DNA of 38,834 nucleotides, taken from assembly GCA_020435335.1 (NCBI GenBank), contig JAGQZT010000115.1, forward strand, positions 1 to 38,834, written 5' to 3'. The translations under genes and the position numbers were made by a program. Within the stretch, counting starts at the first letter, position 1. The number at the start of each line of letters is the position of its first letter. Below, in pieces: positions 12,790-20,468 of this stretch. The notes beneath the pieces were generated by a model. It ran no database searches, had not been told where the DNA came from, and was given only the letters and a program-made list of their open reading frames with translations. This stretch comes from Flavobacteriales bacterium. Its GTDB lineage: Bacteria; Bacteroidota; Bacteroidia; Flavobacteriales_E; Vicingaceae.

Positions 12790-13284
12790 ATGAGTAACAA
12801 AGTAATATCATTGAGCTATACCTTAACCAAAGACACGGCTGAAGGTGAGTTAATCGAATCGACAGAAGGCAAAGATCCGTTGGTGTTTTTATCAGGTGTA
12901 GGACAAATGATCCCTGATTTCGAAGCCAATGTGGTTGACCTGGGTGTTGGTGAAGCATTTTCATTCGGCATTAAAGCTGCTGCTGCTTACGGCGAGCGTA
13001 GCGACGATGCCATCATCGAACTGGAAAAAGACATGTTTATGGACGGCGACAAGCTGGCCGACGGCATTGAAGAAGATAAGATCGTTCCTCTGCAGGATCA
13101 GCACGGACGTGTAGTTCCTGCCAAAGTGGTAAAAATCAATGAAGCCACCGTAACCATGGATGTGAACCATCCGCTGGCCGGTCAAGACCTTCACTTTACC
13201 GGAACCATCATCGAAGTACGTCCTGCGACGGAAGATGAGATTTCTCACGGACACGTACACGGTCCGGGTGGACATCACCACTAA
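12790..13284 (+). CDS. slyD: FKBP-type peptidyl-prolyl isomerase, SlyD-like
   Basis: The 164-residue protein matches SlyD: an N-terminal FKBP half (SLSYTLT, then LSGVGQMIPDFEANVVDLGVGE), an inserted insert-in-flap chaperone region (residues ~70-130), and VNHPLAGQDLHFTGTIIEV returning to the FKBP fold. The tail HGHVHGPGGHHH is the His-rich nickel/zinc-binding end typical of SlyD. Expected role: cytoplasmic proline isomerisation and chaperoning, possibly metal handling. It appears monocistronic, with a terminator 8 bp downstream. A -7-like TATTTTTG lies at 12727-12734, but no matching -33 is seen. Confidence 0.92.
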   Translation: MSNKVISLSYTLTKDTAEGELIESTEGKDPLVFLSGVGQMIPDFEANVVDLGVGEAFSFGIKAAAAYGERSDDAIIELEKDMFMDGDKLADGIEEDKIVPLQDQHGRVVPAKVVKINEATVTMDVNHPLAGQDLHFTGTIIEVRPATEDEISHGHVHGPGGHHH

Positions 13285-13291
13285 GATTTTC

Positions 13292-13319
13292 AAAAGCCTC
13301 ACGTTGTGAGGCTTTTTTT
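13292..13319 (+). terminator. Rho-independent terminator after slyD
   Basis: Stem GCCTCAC (13296-13302), loop GTT, GTGAGGC (13306-13312), followed by seven T (13313-13319); flanking A/T pairs lengthen the stem. It separates slyD from the his leader. Confidence 0.9.
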
Positions 13320-13383: not shown

Positions 13384-13414
13384 TTTGGCGACTAAAATTT
13401 TCTTCCTAGATTTG
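13384..13414 (+). promoter_or_regulatory. Histidine operon promoter
   Basis: TTTG at 13384-13387 and TAGATTTG at 13407-13414 are separated by exactly 19 bases, a perfect match to the Bacteroidota consensus TTTG-N19-TAnnTTTG. The predicted start is near 13418-13421, about 15 nt before the leader-peptide ATG at 13435. Confidence 0.85.
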
Positions 13415-13434
13415 CCGACGAATATTTGGAAAAA

Positions 13435-13491
13435 ATGAATTTCAATACATTACATCAACATCATGTTCATTCTTGGCCTCAGGCGAAGTGA
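13435..13491 (+). CDS. hisL: His operon leader peptide
   Basis: This is an 18-codon ORF encoding MNFNTLHQHHVHSWPQAK, with four His codons within six positions (CAT at 13453, 13459, 13462 and 13468). It starts about 15 nt after the predicted transcription start, and its stop codon is followed by overlapping antiterminator and terminator stems before hisG. This is the layout of a ribosome-stalling attenuation peptide: low charged tRNA-His stalls the ribosome on the His codons. Confidence 0.9.
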   Translation: MNFNTLHQHHVHSWPQAK

Positions 13492-13551
13492 TCGTGATAT
13501 GCTGTAAATTAAAATATCAAGAACCGCCTGAGTAAATCAGGCGGTTTTTTT
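13478..13551 (+). promoter_or_regulatory. His attenuator: mutually exclusive antiterminator and terminator stems
   Basis: Terminator: AACCGCCTGA (13522-13531), loop GTAAA, TCAGGCGGTT (13537-13546), with a run of seven T at 13545-13551. Antiterminator: CTCAGGCG (13478-13485), inside the end of the leader ORF, is perfectly complementary to CGCCTGAG (13525-13532), the 5' arm of the terminator. A ribosome stalled on the His codons leaves 13478-13485 free, so the antiterminator forms and hisG is transcribed. A ribosome that reaches the stop at 13489-13491 covers it, and the terminator forms. A small stem TGATAT/ATATCA (13495-13500 with 13514-13519) lies between. Confidence 0.88.
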
Positions 13552-13592
13552 ATTCCTACCCTTCGGTTTACTCAGGCATAAACAATAAAACA

Positions 13593-14450
13593 ATGAGTAA
13601 ACTAAAAATAGCCGTACAAAAAAGCGGAAGGTTAAATGAAGATTCCCTGCAGTTGTTAAAAGACTGTGGCATTGCTATCAATAACGGGAAAGACCAGTTG
13701 AAAGTGGTGGTCGATAATTTTCCGATGGAAATCCTCTACCTCCGGAATTCCGACATCCCGCAATATTTGGAGGATGGAACCGTAGATATTGCCATAGTCG
13801 GTGAAAACCTGTTGGTAGAAAAACAAAAACAAGTGGCATTGGTTGAGCGTCTCGGCTTTTCCAGGTGCCGAGTTTCATTAGCCGTACCTAAAGATGTAGA
13901 AGATGATTCATTGAGCTATTTCGAAGGTAAAAAAATTGCCACGTCCTACCCTTTTACTTTACAACAGTTTTTGGATAAGAATAAAATCCAGGCAGAAATT
14001 CACACCATTTCAGGTTCGGTAGAGATTGCACCTAATATTGGTCTGGCCGATGGTATTTGTGATATTGTCAGTTCCGGAAGCACCCTCTTTAAAAACGGTC
14101 TTCGGGAAACACAAGTCATCCTGCAATCTGAAGCTGTTCTAGTCAAATCACTACAACTGAACCCGGAACAGGAAACAAATCTGGAAAAGCTGGTATTCCG
14201 GATGAAAGCTGTATTGAAAGCGAAAAAAAATAAATACATCCTGCTTAACGTACCGAATGAAAAAATTGAGGCTGTTACGTCCATCCTGCCGGTTTTAAAA
14301 AGTCCGACGGTACTGCCTTTAGCTGAGCCCGGCTGGAGTTCCTTACACTCAGTGATTCGGGAAGATCAATTCTGGGAGGTAATTGATGAACTCAAGACTG
14401 CCGGAGCAGAAGATATTTTAATTGTACCCATCGATAAAATGGTAAGCTGA
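13593..14450 (+). CDS. hisG: ATP phosphoribosyltransferase, long form
   Basis: First step of histidine synthesis: ATP plus PRPP gives phosphoribosyl-ATP. The 285-residue protein begins with the family start KIAVQKSGRL and contains the VDIAIVGENLL and GLADGICDIVSSGSTL (PRPP-binding) motifs. The C-terminal ~75 residues match the regulatory domain of the long HisG form, which binds histidine for feedback inhibition, so no HisZ partner is needed. It is the first structural gene after the attenuator. Its TGA shares one base with the hisD ATG. Confidence 0.96.
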   Translation: MSKLKIAVQKSGRLNEDSLQLLKDCGIAINNGKDQLKVVVDNFPMEILYLRNSDIPQYLEDGTVDIAIVGENLLVEKQKQVALVERLGFSRCRVSLAVPKDVEDDSLSYFEGKKIATSYPFTLQQFLDKNKIQAEIHTISGSVEIAPNIGLADGICDIVSSGSTLFKNGLRETQVILQSEAVLVKSLQLNPEQETNLEKLVFRMKAVLKAKKNKYILLNVPNEKIEAVTSILPVLKSPTVLPLAEPGWSSLHSVIREDQFWEVIDELKTAGAEDILIVPIDKMVS

Positions 14451-15724
14451 TGAAATTAATTGACAAACCAAGCCAAACAAGCTGGTCGGCATTGATGCAA
14501 CGACCAAAAATTGAACAGTTGATCCTCGAAAAAACGGTTGGAGATGTATTAAAAACCGTGCAACAAAAAGGCGACCAGGCACTTATGCAATACACGCGAG
14601 AGTTCGATGGTATTGAATTGACGAATCTGACTGCGTCATCAGACGAATTGAATGCTGGCTCGGAACAGGTTTCGACAGAACTGAAAGAGGCTATTGAAGT
14701 AGCATACGCCAACATCTATGCATTTCACAAGTCACAGCAATTAGCAGAATCAGTTGTAGAAACAAGTACAGGTGTGGTATGCTGGCGCAAGTCACTCCCT
14801 ATCGAAAAAGTCGGGTTGTATATTCCGGGCGGGAGTGCTCCGCTGTTCTCTACCATACTCATGCTAGGTATTCCGGCTCAGATTGCCGGTTGCAAAGAGC
14901 TTATTCTTTGTACACCACCCGATAAAAATGGTAACATTAATCCGGCAATATGTTATGCTGCCCAACGGGTTGGCATCCGAAATGTGTTTAAAATTGGTGG
15001 CGCTCAGGCTATCGCTGCTATGGCATACGGTACAGAAACCATCCCGCAGGTATACAAGATCTTCGGTCCTGGAAACCAATATGTGACCAAAGCGAAGGAA
15101 CTCATTCAACAAAACGGTATAGCCATAGATATGCCTGCAGGTCCGAGTGAAGTACTTATAATCGCAGACGAATCTTGCCGTCCTGACTTTGTAGCAGCCG
15201 ACCTACTCTCACAAGCTGAACACGGCGCAGACAGTCAGGTGATCTTGTTAACAGACTCACTAGATGTCGCCATGGCTTGCATGCTAAAAATAGAAACCCA
15301 GCTTGAAGAATTACCTCGTAAAGCACTGGCATTAAAAGCTTTAAACAACAGCAAAACCATCGTTTTAAACAACCTGGATGAATGCATGGAATTCAGTAAT
15401 GCCTATGCACCTGAGCACTTGATCCTCGCGACCAAAAATGCCCGAGAACTGGCTGAAAGCGTGATGAACGCCGGATCCGTTTTCATTGGGAATTACAGTT
15501 GTGAGTCTGCCGGCGACTATGCCAGCGGCACTAACCACACCTTGCCTACCAATGGTTTTGCAAAAAGCTACAGCGGGGTTTCACTCGATAGTTTCGTGAA
15601 GAAAATCACGTTTCAGGAACTGACCCAGGAAGGATTGAACCAAATCGGACAGGCCATTGAAACCATGGCAGAAGCCGAACAACTTTTTGCTCACAGAAAT
15701 GCAGTAACTGTACGATTAAAATGA
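14450..15724 (+). CDS. hisD: Histidinol dehydrogenase
   Basis: Catalyses the last two oxidations, from L-histidinol to L-histidine, with NAD and zinc. The 424-residue length is normal. Family motifs seen: GLYIPGGSAPLFST, GGAQAIAAMAYGT, GPGNQYVTKAK, MPAGPSEVLIIAD, the zinc-site SQAEHGADSQ, catalytic Glu322-His323 in APEHLILAT, and GDYASGTNHTLPT. The start overlaps the hisG stop by one base; hisC follows after 6 bp. Confidence 0.97.
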   Translation: MKLIDKPSQTSWSALMQRPKIEQLILEKTVGDVLKTVQQKGDQALMQYTREFDGIELTNLTASSDELNAGSEQVSTELKEAIEVAYANIYAFHKSQQLAESVVETSTGVVCWRKSLPIEKVGLYIPGGSAPLFSTILMLGIPAQIAGCKELILCTPPDKNGNINPAICYAAQRVGIRNVFKIGGAQAIAAMAYGTETIPQVYKIFGPGNQYVTKAKELIQQNGIAIDMPAGPSEVLIIADESCRPDFVAADLLSQAEHGADSQVILLTDSLDVAMACMLKIETQLEELPRKALALKALNNSKTIVLNNLDECMEFSNAYAPEHLILATKNARELAESVMNAGSVFIGNYSCESAGDYASGTNHTLPTNGFAKSYSGVSLDSFVKKITFQELTQEGLNQIGQAIETMAEAEQLFAHRNAVTVRLK

Positions 15725-15730
15725 AAAGAA

Positions 15731-16759
15731 ATGATTGATTTAAATAGCATAATACGTCCAAACATCCGGCAATTGAAACCTTACTCCAGCGCTCGTGATG
15801 AGTTTTCCGGAACAGAAGGGATCTTTCTGGATGCCAATGAAAATCCCTTTGGTACACTTAACCGTTATCCTGATCCTTACCAACAGGAGCTGAAAGCCCA
15901 AATAGCCGATCTTAAGGGCCTGAATACCGATTCCATTTTCATCGGCAACGGCAGCGATGAAGTGATCGACCTCGTTTTCAGGATCTGCTGTGAGCCGGGT
16001 AAAGACAAAGCGCTCACATTTACACCCACTTACGGCATGTATGAAGTGGCTGCAAATATTAATAACGCAGAGTTGATCCATATCCCGTTGGATGACCAAT
16101 TTCAGATCGACCTGAAAACCGTTCAACCTTATCTAAGCGATCCAAAACTCAAACTCATCCTGATCTGTTCTCCCAACAACCCCACAGGGAACCTGATGGA
16201 ACGAGAAAAGATCGAATACATATTGGCTAATTTTGAAGGGCTGGTGTTGGTAGATGAAGCTTATGTGGATTTTGCAGATGAAGAATCATTAATTGGTCTC
16301 CTGAGTAAATACAACAACCTGATCGTTAGCCAAACTTTTAGTAAAGCCTGGGGATTAGCCGCAGCACGGGTGGGAACGGCCTACGCTTCTCAAGAAATGA
16401 TCGGCTGGTTCAATAAAGTGAAACCACCCTACAATGTGAGCACCCCCAATCAACAAGCTGTTCTGAATGCGCTGAAAAACTATAAGGAATACAGCAAGCA
16501 AGTGGAGATGATCCGTCAGGAAAAAGAACAATTGATCAACGCTTTAGGTAAAATCGCTAGCGTAAAAAGGATCTATCCGTCAGATGCTAATTTCATCCTG
16601 CTCGAAGTCGATGATGCCAATGCGCTTTATGCGGTGTTATCCGAGCAAAAAATCATCGTTCGGAACAGGAACACCGTGATTCCGAATGGTATTCGAATCA
16701 GCATCGGAACACCTGAAGAAAACAACCTATTAATTAATACTCTAACTCAAATAGCATGA
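15731..16759 (+). CDS. hisC: Histidinol-phosphate aminotransferase
   Basis: PLP enzyme converting imidazole-acetol phosphate to histidinol phosphate with glutamate. The 342 residues show [49 protein letters not shown] and the PLP-lysine motif [16 protein letters not shown] (Lys205). It overlaps the hisB start by 4 bp (ATGA). Confidence 0.97.
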
Positions 16760-17844
16760 AAAAAGTTTTATTCATCGACCGCGACGGTACCCTGGTGATC
16801 GAACCTCCTGTAGACTATCAACTCGACAGCCTCGAAAAACTGGAATTCTATCCTGGCGTATTTCAATGGTTATCACGCATTGTGAAAGAACTCGATTACG
16901 AACTGGTTATGGTAACCAATCAGGATGGTCTGGGTACCGACTCCTTTCCGGAAGATACCTTCTGGCCTGCTCAAAACAAGATTATTCAAGCTTTTAAAAA
17001 TGAAGGGATTACCTTTAATGAAATACTGATCGATAAAAGTTTTCCGGAAGAACAGGCTCCTACCCGAAAACCTGGCACTGCCCTGCTGAATGCATACATC
17101 TACGGCGATTATGATCTGGCCAACTCCTATGTGATCGGCGACCGGGAAACGGATATCCAGCTGGCCAAAAACCTGAACGCTCAGGGAATTTTTATTGGTG
17201 ATCAAAATGATAATGCCGTGCTCAGTACCACCAGTTGGGAAAGCATTTACCGGTTTTTAAAAATGAAACCTCGACAGGCAACCGTTCAGCGAACTACGAA
17301 TGAAACCGATATTACGGTTACCCTTAACCTCGACGGAAGCGGGAAATCAAATTTGAATACAGGTATAGGTTTCTTTGATCACATGCTGGAGCAAATTGCC
17401 AGACACGGTAATCTCGATCTCGAAATCAGCGTGAAGGGCGACCTGAAAATTGATGAACACCACTCCATAGAAGATGTTGCCATTACCCTGGGAGAAGCCT
17501 TCCTGAAAGCCTTAGGGAGCAAAAAAGGAATCGAACGTTATGGATTCCTTTTACCGATGGATGATTGTCTGGCTCAGGTTACCATTGATTTTGGCGGCAG
17601 ACCGTGGTTGGTTTGGGAGGCCGGATTTTCCCGGGAAATGATCGGAGAAATGCCGACAGAAATGTTTATGCACTTCTTTAAATCATTTAGTGATGCTGCT
17701 CGATGCAACCTCAACATCAAAGCCGAAGGCAACAATGAACACCACAAGATCGAAGCTGTCTTTAAAGCTTTTGCAAAAGCTTTAAAAATGGCTGTGAGTA
17801 AAACTGAGAATTATAACATACCAAGTACAAAAGGAATCTTATGA
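16756..17844 (+). CDS. hisB: Bifunctional histidinol-phosphatase / imidazoleglycerol-phosphate dehydratase
   Basis: The N-terminal HAD phosphatase (residues 1-~165; IDRDGTL with Asp8 and Asp10, [21 protein letters not shown]) is fused to the C-terminal dehydratase (from ~residue 172; [58 protein letters not shown]). It performs the dehydratase and phosphatase steps. In E. coli HisB the phosphatase binds zinc through a C-x-H-x5-C-x-C loop. Here that loop reads [15 protein letters not shown] without Cys or His, which I believe is common in Bacteroidota HisB. It overlaps hisC and hisH by 4 bp each. Confidence 0.96.
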
Positions 17845-18419
17845 TTGCACTCGTAAAATACAATGCCGGAAACATCGCTTCGGTGCAAAATGCCCTGAAC
17901 CGATTAGGAGCAGAAAGTATCCTAACGGATGATCCAAACCTGATCAGGACTGCCGATAAGGTAATCTTTCCCGGTGTGGGAGAAGCCGGAACAGCCATGA
18001 ATTACCTTAAACAGCAGAGATTGGATGAAGTGATTCTTTCTCTGAACAAGCCTTTCCTGGGGATTTGCCTGGGTCTCCAGCTAATGTGTAAGTCATCTGA
18101 AGAAGGAAATACATCTTGTTTGGGGATATTCGATACACAGGTACGTTGCTTTCCTCCGCAAGATAAGGTTCCTCACATGGGCTGGAATAATTGTATCAAC
18201 CAGAAAGGACCATTGTTCGGAGGTATAGAAACAACCGACGACATGTACTATGTTCACAGTTTTTATGCAGAACCTTGTCTCCAAACAGTTGCAACATGTG
18301 ATTACATTTTACCTTTCAGTGCGGCTTTACAGCAAGATAATTACTACGCTGTTCAATTTCATCCGGAAAAATCGGGTACGGTTGGACAACAAATGTTACA
18401 AAACTTTTTAAACCTATGA
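17841..18419 (+). CDS. hisH: Imidazole glycerol phosphate synthase, glutaminase subunit
   Basis: Class I glutamine amidotransferase that passes ammonia to HisF. The 192 residues contain FPGVGEAG, the nucleophile elbow [10 protein letters not shown] (Cys76), GWNN, and the His174-x-Glu176 pair in QFHPEKS. ATGA overlaps link it to hisB and hisA. Confidence 0.96.
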
Positions 18420-19129
18420 GAATCATACCTGCCATAGACATCATCAACGGAAAATGTGTACGCCTTTCCAAAGGGGACTACACCACGATGAAAATTTATA
18501 ACGAAGATCCGCTGGAAGTGGCAAAAGCTTTTGAAGATCATGGCATCGAGTACTTACACGTGGTGGATTTGGACGGTGCAAAATCACAACACATTGTGAA
18601 CTACCCTGTATTGGAGCGCATCTGCAATCAAACCAGTTTACAAGTAGATTTTGGTGGCGGACTGAAGTCGAACGAAGACCTAAGAATTGCATTTGAATGT
18701 GGTGCGGGACAAATAACAGGAGGCAGTATTGCCGTTAAAGATCCCAATTGTTTCCTTACCTGGCTGAATCAATACGGAAGTAATCGGATTATCCTTGGAG
18801 CAGATTGTTACGATCGAAAAATTGCCACATCCGGTTGGCTGGAAAGCTCAGAACTCGATGTGGTTGATTTTATTAGCAACTGGGGCAATCAGGGTGTTCA
18901 ATATGTGATTTGTACCGACATTTCGAAGGACGGCATGCTGGAAGGAAGTTCAAACAATCTTTATCAGGAAATACTGGAAACATGCAATGTAAAACTGATT
19001 GCCAGCGGAGGTGTTTCCGGAGTGAACGATTTACTGGAACTTCAGAAAATCGGCTGTGACGGTGCCATTATCGGAAAAGCGATTTATGAAGGAAAAATAA
19101 CCCTAAAAGAATTGAGTCAATTATGTTAA
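18416..19129 (+). CDS. hisA: Phosphoribosylformimino-AICAR ribotide isomerase (ProFAR isomerase)
   Basis: A (beta/alpha)8-barrel isomerase of 237 residues. The N-terminal catalytic Asp is Asp8 in [11 protein letters not shown] and the second is Asp168 in [12 protein letters not shown]. The phosphate-binding turns VDFGGGLKS and ASGGVSG are present. It overlaps the start of hisF by 7 bp. The alternating hisA-hisF order is usual for this paralogous pair. Confidence 0.95.
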
Positions 19130-19875
19130 AAAAGAGAATTATTCCCTGCCTCGACATCCAAAACGGACGTACGGTAAAAGGGATCAATTTTGTGGATATC
19201 CGGGACGCAGGTGATCCCATCGAATTAGCAAAACTTTACGCCGATCAGGGAGCCGATGAGTTGGTTTTCCTGGACATTACAGCTACCGTGGAGAACCGAA
19301 AAACCTGGATCGAACTGGTTAAACGAATTGCCCGGGAAATCAACATTCCCTTCACAGTAGGCGGTGGAATTTCGAGTGTTGAAACCGTAAGAGAATTGGT
19401 TCAAGCCGGTGCTGATAAGGTCAGTATCAATTCTGCTGCAGTATCACGCCCTGAACTCATCCGGGAAATTTCTGCCGAATTTGGTAATCAATGCGTGGTT
19501 GCAGCTGTAGATACCAACCTACTTGACGGAGCATGGATGGTCTATACACACGGTGGACGAAACCCAACAGCGCTAAAAACCCTCGATTGGGTAAAACAAC
19601 TGGAATTGCTTGGTGCCGGTGAAATCTTGTTAACTTCAATGAACACCGACGGAACCAAACGCGGCTTTGACCTAAACATTACCGAACAGGTTTGCCGTAC
19701 GGTGAATATCCCGGTCATTGCATCCGGTGGCGCGGGTTCTGTGGAAGATTTCAAACAAGTCTTTACGAAAACCCAAGCAACAGGTGGTTTAGCCGCCAGT
19801 ATTTTTCACTTCGGCGAAATCCCCGTACCAGCTTTAAAAAACTATTTAAAAAACGAAAAAATTGACATACGATGA
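19123..19875 (+). CDS. hisF: Imidazole glycerol phosphate synthase, cyclase subunit
   Basis: The 250-residue barrel begins [18 protein letters not shown] with catalytic Asp11; the second catalytic residue is Asp130 in VAAVDTN. Phosphate-binding motifs FTVGGGISS and IASGGAGS are present. With HisH it makes imidazole glycerol phosphate and AICAR. It overlaps hisIE by 4 bp. Confidence 0.96.
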
Positions 19876-20468
19876 ACCCATTAGATTTAGATTTTGATAA
19901 AGGAAATGGATTGATTCCGGTGGTAATCCAACAGAACCACACATTACAAGTTCTTATGCTCGGTTATATGAATGAAGAAGCGTACCGTAAAACCAACGTG
20001 GAAAAACGGGTAACCTTCTTCAGCAGAAGCAAGAACAGACTTTGGACCAAAGGTGAAACGTCAGGCAATTTCCTAGAAGTGGTTGATATTCAAAAGGATT
20101 GTGACAACGACAGTTTGCTGATTAAAGTAAATCCAACGGGAGCAACGTGCCACACCGGGAGCACCAGTTGTTTTCAGGAAGAAACAGCCAAAGGTTTTAT
20201 CTATGACTTACAAAATACGATCCAACAGCGTTTGGATTCCGATAGTAGCGATTCGTATACAAACTCACTGGTAAAGCAAGGCATCAATAAAGTAGCCCAG
20301 AAAGTAGGTGAAGAAGCTGTAGAACTGGTGATCGAAGCCATGGATAATAACCTAACTTTCTTCAAAAATGAAGCGGCCGACCTGCTCTTCCACTATTTGG
20401 TATTGCTGAAAGCCAAAGGAACTGACCTGGAAGAGATCGAGAAAATATTGCAAGAAAGAGCTAGCTAA
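19872..20468 (+). CDS. hisIE: Bifunctional phosphoribosyl-AMP cyclohydrolase / phosphoribosyl-ATP pyrophosphatase
   Basis: The HisI part (residues ~1-110) has TFFSRSKNRLWTKGETSGN and the metal-site DCDNDSLLIKV followed by GATCHTGSTSCF. The HisE part (~115-198) has KVAQKVGEEAVELVIEA and AADLLFHYLVLL. Together they carry out steps two and three of the pathway. The operon ends here; its last 8 bp overlap, tail to tail, the small minus-strand gene ending at 20461. Confidence 0.96.
   Translation: MNPLDLDFDKGNGLIPVVIQQNHTLQVLMLGYMNEEAYRKTNVEKRVTFFSRSKNRLWTKGETSGNFLEVVDIQKDCDNDSLLIKVNPTGATCHTGSTSCFQEETAKGFIYDLQNTIQQRLDSDSSDSYTNSLVKQGINKVAQKVGEEAVELVIEAMDNNLTFFKNEAADLLFHYLVLLKAKGTDLEEIEKILQERAS

Follow-up and report, generated by a model that had tools for sequence, protein, structure and literature searches.

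The question raised by this locus is how a bacterium of the phylum Bacteroidota adjusts the expression of its histidine genes, and whether a ribosome translating a short leader peptide could set more than the termination of transcription. The window, i.e., the whole stretch of 38,834 nucleotides analyzed here (contig JAGQZT010000115.1 of assembly GCA_020435335.1, a Flavobacteriales bacterium of the family Vicingaceae), carries a leader of about 220 bases followed by the complete operon hisG-D-C-B-H-A-F-I/E (13593–20468, with intergenic gaps of at most 6 bases), whose gene names we presume from the translations. Leader-peptide attenuation is textbook knowledge for enterobacteria; only brief hints of it were found in print for Bacteroidota, and its presence bears on whether the coupling of transcription to translation in this phylum is close enough for a ribosome to direct the polymerase. 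Judged from comparison and folding, the leader in the window is almost certainly a ribosome-sensing histidine attenuator. Its joint explanation is probably this attenuator plus a latch, in which a further strand, d, located between the terminator and hisG, would close the start of the gene. The elements concerned are as follows.

13384–13414, forward strand: promoter TTTG-N19-TAGATTTG, with TTTG at 13384–13387 and TAGATTTG at 13407–13414, read from the sequence and presumably to be named a Bacteroidota-type promoter
13435–13491, forward strand: leader open reading frame (ORF) MNFNTLHQHHVHSWPQAK, 18 codons, with its His codons between 13453 and 13470
13450–13507, forward strand: arms 1 and 2, a hairpin of the His codons with the RNA after the stop, from folding; it encloses strand a
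13478–13485, forward strand: strand a, CTCAGGCG, the 5' strand of the antiterminator, in the last leader codons and complementary to 13525–13532
13522–13536, forward strand: strand 3 with its loop, i.e., the 5' arm of the terminator AACCGCCTGA and the loop GTAAA, from direct reading, terminator prediction, and covariation
13537–13551, forward strand: strand 4 and T run, i.e., the 3' arm of the terminator TCAGGCGGTT and the T residues after it, from the same three sources
13565–13577, forward strand: strand d, GGTTTACTCAGGC, complementary to 13526–13538 and, through GTTTACTCA, to the hisG start
13593–13602, forward strand: S, the hisG start ATGAGTAAAC, partner of d by match, covariation, and accessibility
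13593–14450, forward strand: hisG, 285 amino acids, first gene of the operon, from its translation and a HisG search

A first-pass annotation of this DNA had described a complete histidine attenuator. The promoter it named, TTTG-N19-TAnnTTTG, is present to the base; the leader peptide of 18 residues reads directly, four His falling within one six-codon stretch (H Q H H V H); and the terminator (13522–13551) and the 8-bp antiterminator (13478–13485 with 13525–13532) precede hisG at exactly the positions given. Strand a, CTCAGGCG, is the exact complement of CGCCTGAG within strand 3. The terminator stem pairs 13522–13531 with 13537–13546 and is followed by the T run, the terminator prediction placing the hairpin at 13519–13549, while hairpin 1:2 joins TTACA (13450–13454) to TGTAA (13503–13507) and ATCATG (13460–13465) to CGTGAT (13493–13498). 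Folding of 13418–13592, which the annotation had proposed as a check, yields −45.6 kcal/mol (z −4.89), a value equaled by none of 200 shuffles.

The annotation had also proposed a check of related genomes for a His-rich ORF and covarying stems, and both were found, the opposite of the outcome that was to count against it. HisG is present in 24 of the 60 genomes searched as relatives (its own included) and, across the phylum, in 325 of 392. Altogether, 229 different hisG upstreams were compiled from the search of relatives (22, with that of the window), the search of the phylum (28), fetched sequences (100), and named genomes (79); the sample leans to closer HisG relatives, better-scoring matches having been fetched first. 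Of these upstreams, 214 contain a short ORF in which eight codons include three or more His, compared with 61 of 1145 dinucleotide shuffles, and in 201 it is accompanied by a terminator, as called by our own script. The 28 upstreams that fall out comprise 15 that miss the His threshold and 13 that carry the leader without a terminator being called. Furthermore, 142 of the 201 leaders have TAnnTTTG no more than 70 bases ahead of the leader ATG, compared with 205 of 4020 base shuffles. A his attenuator is therefore likely to be widespread in Bacteroidota, as far as sequences can tell. A second a...3 pair was not found elsewhere in the 60 genomes: nine have a match, eight of them at hisG, and the ninth (G004) shows a His-rich leader on a contig that ends in the terminator.

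The competing helices are conserved to different degrees. The pairing of a with 3 is better than that of shuffles (p ≤ 0.033) in 129 of 201 leaders, and cognate strands average −13.6 kcal/mol vs −8.9 for swapped pairs, the cognate pair being within the best 5% of swaps in 53%. Covariation was scored on an alignment of 85 leaders, picked for their fit of 3 to d, with 500 shuffles as controls. Pairing reaches 96.6% in helix 3:4, where double-change cells number 70 (23.4 in shuffles), and 85.0% in helix a:3, where they number 23 (12.5 in shuffles); none of the 500 shuffles reaches either count. The antiterminator is thus exclusive with the terminator and its pairing is conserved, more weakly than that of 3:4.

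To model the effect of the ribosome, the leaders were folded with a footprint fixed on the first His codon, the last His codon, or the leader stop, or with none. Predicted a:3 probabilities above 0.5 are obtained for 192 of 201 leaders when the footprint is on the first His codon, for 167 when it is on the last, for 2 at the stop, and for 66 when the ribosome is absent; the window itself has 0.99 at the first His codon, 0.00 at the stop, and 0.88 without a ribosome. The helix is lost at the stop because strand a lies inside the covered stretch, a matter of geometry, and the 66 leaders without a ribosome reflect hairpin 1:2, which encloses strand a. These values agree with the earlier proposal that, with the antiterminator strand in the last leader codons, the position of the ribosome chooses the fold. 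The leader combines a run of codons for the product of its own operon, an intrinsic terminator between the ORF and hisG, an antiterminator exclusive with it, and an effect of ribosome position in folding.

Strand d, located 15 bases before hisG in the window, adds a third partner for strand 3. It is complementary to 13526–13538 over 13 pairs, one of them G-T, a segment that consists of the terminator arm, the loop, and two further bases. Tested against 100 shuffles, this pairing reaches significance (p ≤ 0.02) for 87 of 192 leaders. A retest free of selection gives 85 of 145, including 81 of 117 from Flavobacteriales and all 10 tested from the family of the window; outside Flavobacteriales, the counts are 1 of 23 for other unnamed Bacteroidota and 3 of 5 for other named ones. 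In all 87 leaders, which were chosen for fit, d is better matched by its own arm than, on average, by arms that carry other loops. Across the 85 aligned sequences, two-sided changes are seen at 8 of the 13 pairs, some of them in the loop, double-change cells number 83 vs 16.6 in shuffles, and sliding the strands against each other lowers the pairing from 89.2% to 20.7–41.1%. Over 86 leaders, d lies 13–34 bases (median 16) from the gene start and 10–48 bases from the terminator.

The second partner of d was found because its partner was asked for with strand 3 taken: d is then predicted to be mostly paired (unpaired 0.29), and the partner is the start of hisG. In the window, GTTTACTCA (13566–13574) pairs with TGAGTAAAC (13594–13602) over 9 pairs. 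The comparison covers 169 of the 192 leaders, those with the ATG in place, of which 85 have d and 84 do not; d had been chosen by fit to strand 3 alone. Strand d matches the hisG start over at least 7 bases in 72 of 85 leaders, compared with 10 of 84 without d. On the 85 leaders, d:S is 89.2% paired with 45 double-change cells vs 16.8 in shuffles, none of 500 reaching that. At one pair of columns (217/272), the base of d, G or A, tracks that of hisG codon 4, C or T, in 49 of 55 informative rows (table 17, 4, 2, 32; Fisher 1.2e-8, kinship ignored). This change in codon 4 is mostly silent (Leu, CTA/TTA), and strand 3 carries T in 41 of the same 55 rows. In 20 of the 85 rows, the named ones being Flavobacterium, strand 3, d, and the gene start read C, G, and C, while most others read A, T, and A. 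By sequence, covariation of both pairings of d is found mainly in Flavobacteriales.

The strand 3 and loop segment includes TGAGTAAA (13529–13536), a repeat of the hisG start. Among the 85 leaders with d, 58 have at least 7 bases in common between the terminator arm with its loop and the opening 13 bases of hisG, compared with 2 of 84 without d; for the next 13 bases, the count is 1 of 85. The gene opens Met-Ser in 76 of 85 leaders with d and in 16 of 84 without.

The predicted openness of the start, taken over −2 to +8 of hisG, depends on the partner of strand 3. With 3:4 kept, the start is unpaired at 0.34 on average over the 85 leaders, compared with 0.49 when the linker is shuffled and 0.60 when d:3 is forced; the respective values for the window are 0.29, 0.54, and 0.88, and leaders without d give 0.56, and 0.57 shuffled. 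Forcing d:3 raises accessibility by more than 0.1 in 72 of 85 leaders and lowers it as much in 2. Direct-path barriers, computed for bare helices with nearest-neighbor energies, average 5.7 kcal/mol from a:3 to d:3 and 10.1 from a:3 to 3:4, the former being the lower in 83 of 85, while 22.1 is obtained from 3:4 to d:3 and 17.4 for the reverse. These barriers suggest that, in the model, an antiterminated message passes strand 3 from a to d and keeps its start open, whereas a message with the terminator hairpin closes it.

Two other roles for d were tried and rejected. As an equilibrium competitor of the terminator it does not serve, d:3 being more stable in only 2 of 86 leaders; nor does it block −20 to +10 through free folding, where mean accessibility is 0.58, and 0.58 again when strand 3 is blocked.

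A mechanism can be proposed on this basis. When charged His-tRNA is ample, the ribosome would reach the leader stop and cover strand a, 3:4 would pair, and RNA polymerase would halt; in any transcript that escaped termination, strand 3 would remain bound to 4, leaving d free to close S. When His-tRNA is short, the ribosome would stall on the His codons, a:3 would form, and the polymerase would go on, after which d could invade strand 3 from the loop side, displace a, and stay there, leaving S open. One strand with three partners (a, 4, and d) would thereby set both his transcription and hisG translation. That the start of hisG is closed by strand d on leaked messages is, on balance, more likely than not. 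Our preference, a slight one, extends to a two-output attenuator with memory, in which the position of the ribosome on 18 codons would set termination and d would relay the outcome to the hisG start, leaked messages would stay untranslated, and the 5' arm of the terminator would have evolved into a decoy that copies the gene start, gating translation without a Shine-Dalgarno sequence. If the latch is true, it represents a leader-peptide switch that governs termination and start-codon access by the same strand, and it would explain how leaky termination is kept from yielding enzyme in bacteria without Shine-Dalgarno sequences. In Flavobacterium johnsoniae, initiation is reported to proceed without Shine-Dalgarno sequences, with RNA structure from −20 to +20 tuning it (PMC6847099), in the light of which a latch on the start codon makes sense.

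Several observations weigh against this account. For a:3, only 2 of 8 pairs change on both sides, which is not above shuffles (247 of 500 as high), and hairpin 1:2, which outperforms its shuffles (p ≤ 0.033) in just 51 of 201 leaders, is weak in the window, where a:3 is predicted without any ribosome. The 85 aligned leaders were picked for their fit of 3 to d, which favors the covariation result for that helix, 36 of 117 tested Flavobacteriales lack a significant 3:d, and a leader from the genus of the window (L005) gave p 0.06 in the first test, though it is significant in the retest. Strand d is complementary to the start region and the pairing is conserved, yet two of five measures for d:S are not above shuffles, namely the count of pairs changed on both sides (5, equaled or exceeded in 108 of 500) and the count of pair types (in 287 of 500). 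On a HisG tree of 50 rows, d and S switch together in 4.5 of 6 supported independent contrasts on average, with 0.3 opposed and a median p of 0.125, a test that is underpowered. The second codon of hisG is AGT in 75 of the 76 Met-Ser starts with d, yet also in 13 of the 16 without, and where hisG does not open in this way the match of d to S is often shifted or lost. When the linker is simply tested against the hisG start with shuffles as controls, no more than 23 of 145 leaders attain p ≤ 0.02, both segments being AT-rich. With the ribosome at the first His codon, the 3:4 state is still the most stable in 75 of 85 leaders, and the open state must consequently rest on kinetics. Additionally, no d-like strand was seen by eye, unscored, in the pheA and trpE leaders described below.

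These points bear on the rival explanations to unequal extents. In the simplest of them, the leader is a plain leader-peptide attenuator, and d pairs with 3 and S for other ends, such as message stability or shielding from Rho, without gating hisG. The whole of the attenuator evidence fits it, as does the stability of 3:4 just mentioned, and 3:d is kept in leaders where d:S is lost (e.g., L067, L178, L212, and L219); it leaves aside the fit of d to the hisG start and its tracking of codon 4, as well as a predicted start accessibility that is reduced relative to shuffled linkers for 66 of the 85 leaders with d, vs 20 of 84 without. We regard it as unlikely, while granting it real weight. The complementarity of d to the terminator loop, a possible kissing site, would also suit a terminated leader RNA that acts in trans on d of full-length his messages. 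Strand 3 would, however, be locked in 3:4 in such an RNA, the same strand is available in cis, and d:3 would presumably open the start rather than close it, which makes action in trans very improbable.

A terminator that works constitutively beside a chance His-rich ORF, with ribosome position irrelevant, is harder still to believe, since the ORF and the terminator recur jointly in 201 of 229 upstreams, with antiterminator pairing. Finally, strands 3 and d do form an inverted repeat in DNA, TGAGTAAA...TTTACTCA, which might be an operator for a protein with no RNA element involved. This candidate was set aside as next to incredible: the spacing from strand 4 to d varies over the range given above for 86 leaders, and the loop bases covary by pairing without drifting to one consensus. 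The attenuator with a start-closing strand d accordingly remains our favored explanation.

Several observations on hisG leaders stand apart from these readings. The gene is patchy in its distribution: in the family to which the window belongs, it was not found in 12 of the 16 genera sampled, and many of the genomes without it are more than 95% complete. One leader (L047) keeps strand a, the terminator, and a d-like strand with its His codons down to one (MTFIQNYHRFYNCSQAI), against four to six in other members of its genus (L041, L043, and L044); to go by the sequences, this is a sensor eroding ahead of its RNA switch. Flavobacteriales-type leaders with strand d are also found in two metagenome-assembled genomes of Saprospiraceae (L159 and L174, with HisG identities to the query of 76% and 74%) and in a different class (L040), that of L174 being weaker (p 0.04); their occurrence in other lineages may stem from gene transfer or misbinning. 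In the window, the gene 5' of the leader (12790–13316 region), which we take to be FKBP/SlyD-like, has a His-rich tail, GHVHGPGGHHH, and a terminator-like hairpin of its own at 13292–13316.

Attenuation by leader peptides looks common for amino-acid operons in the relatives, as far as their upstream sequences indicate. Leaders with at least three Phe in eight codons precede 7 of 9 pheA loci (one, L235, doubtful), and leaders with three Trp precede 13 of 17 trpE loci; nothing convincing was found before 8 leuA loci. The Phe-rich leaders (e.g., MTYFFFYFFNPN; L234–L242) and Trp-run leaders (e.g., MITTKNTNWWWFRFNSKA; L269–L285) are mostly followed by a terminator.

Among known systems, the nearest counterpart is the his attenuator of E. 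coli, in which ribosome position is the signal. The hisL leader of E. coli K-12 (Rfam RF00514) shares with the window a His-rich leader ORF, competing strands, an intrinsic terminator, and hisG as the next gene, which supports the enterobacterial logic assigned to the window by the first-pass annotation; that assignment was incomplete, as strand d and its partner at the hisG start had been missed. The claim that the arrangement is much more compact holds only in a mild form, with 117 bases from the leader ATG to the end of the T run in the window vs 145 to the end of the stem in E. coli K-12. In E. coli, GATCTTCC, able to pair with GGAAGATC of the terminator, lies by eye well past the leader stop, whereas strand a lies inside the last codons in the window. 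E. coli K-12 also lacks a d-like strand, its best match between linker and terminator arm being 5 bases (shuffle p 0.605). A scan of the window with Rfam returned no family at its cut-off, and RF00514 gave no row for it even at E 10, leaving it short of the gathering score; of 12 relatives scanned, L225 alone gives a row for that family, at 31.1 bits, below the gathering value of 49. A stretch of 13 bases, TCAGGCGATGTGT, stands right after the His run in both E. coli K-12 (L308) and two Flavobacterium-type leaders (L051 and L054); it pairs by eye with the leader end in the former, and part of it pairs with the terminator arm in the latter type. Convergence, chance, or deep kinship may account for it.

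The two outputs proposed here have a parallel in the trp operon of B. subtilis, where one leader governs both transcription termination and trpE translation through TRAP. The signal there is a tryptophan-binding protein, and the site closed is the Shine-Dalgarno sequence, whereas in the window the signal would be the ribosome and the closed site the start codon itself, a Shine-Dalgarno sequence being absent.

Closer to the phylum, a transcriptome study of F. psychrophilum reports strong signs of attenuation by leader peptides upstream of amino-acid operons, together with a structured 5' element of hisG, also present in other Flavobacteriaceae, without an Rfam hit (PMC9723704). This is very probably the element of the window in another family; in its section on the hisG element, that paper describes neither arms nor a strand d, nor any occurrence outside the family. 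For Bacteroides thetaiotaomicron, of the same phylum, leader-like short ORFs in long 5' untranslated regions are described in the portion of a report used here, in which the example is a gene for a hypothetical protein and histidine goes unmentioned in the main text (PMC7366714). In Firmicutes, according to excerpts of a comparative study, His-leader attenuators with three to five His codons and alternative hairpins were found by comparison, and some swap the terminator for a structure that closes the ribosome-binding site, i.e., a single output, whereas both are predicted together in the window leader (PMC9413887). A paper on his genes of the superphylum names attenuation only for enterobacteria in the passages considered, and the word "leader" is absent from it (PMC8305728). 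Within the open-access literature searched, no account of strand d or of a phylum-wide his attenuator was found. Compared with these systems, the attenuator itself belongs to a known type that transcriptome papers had hinted at, while strand d and the proposed latch are new.
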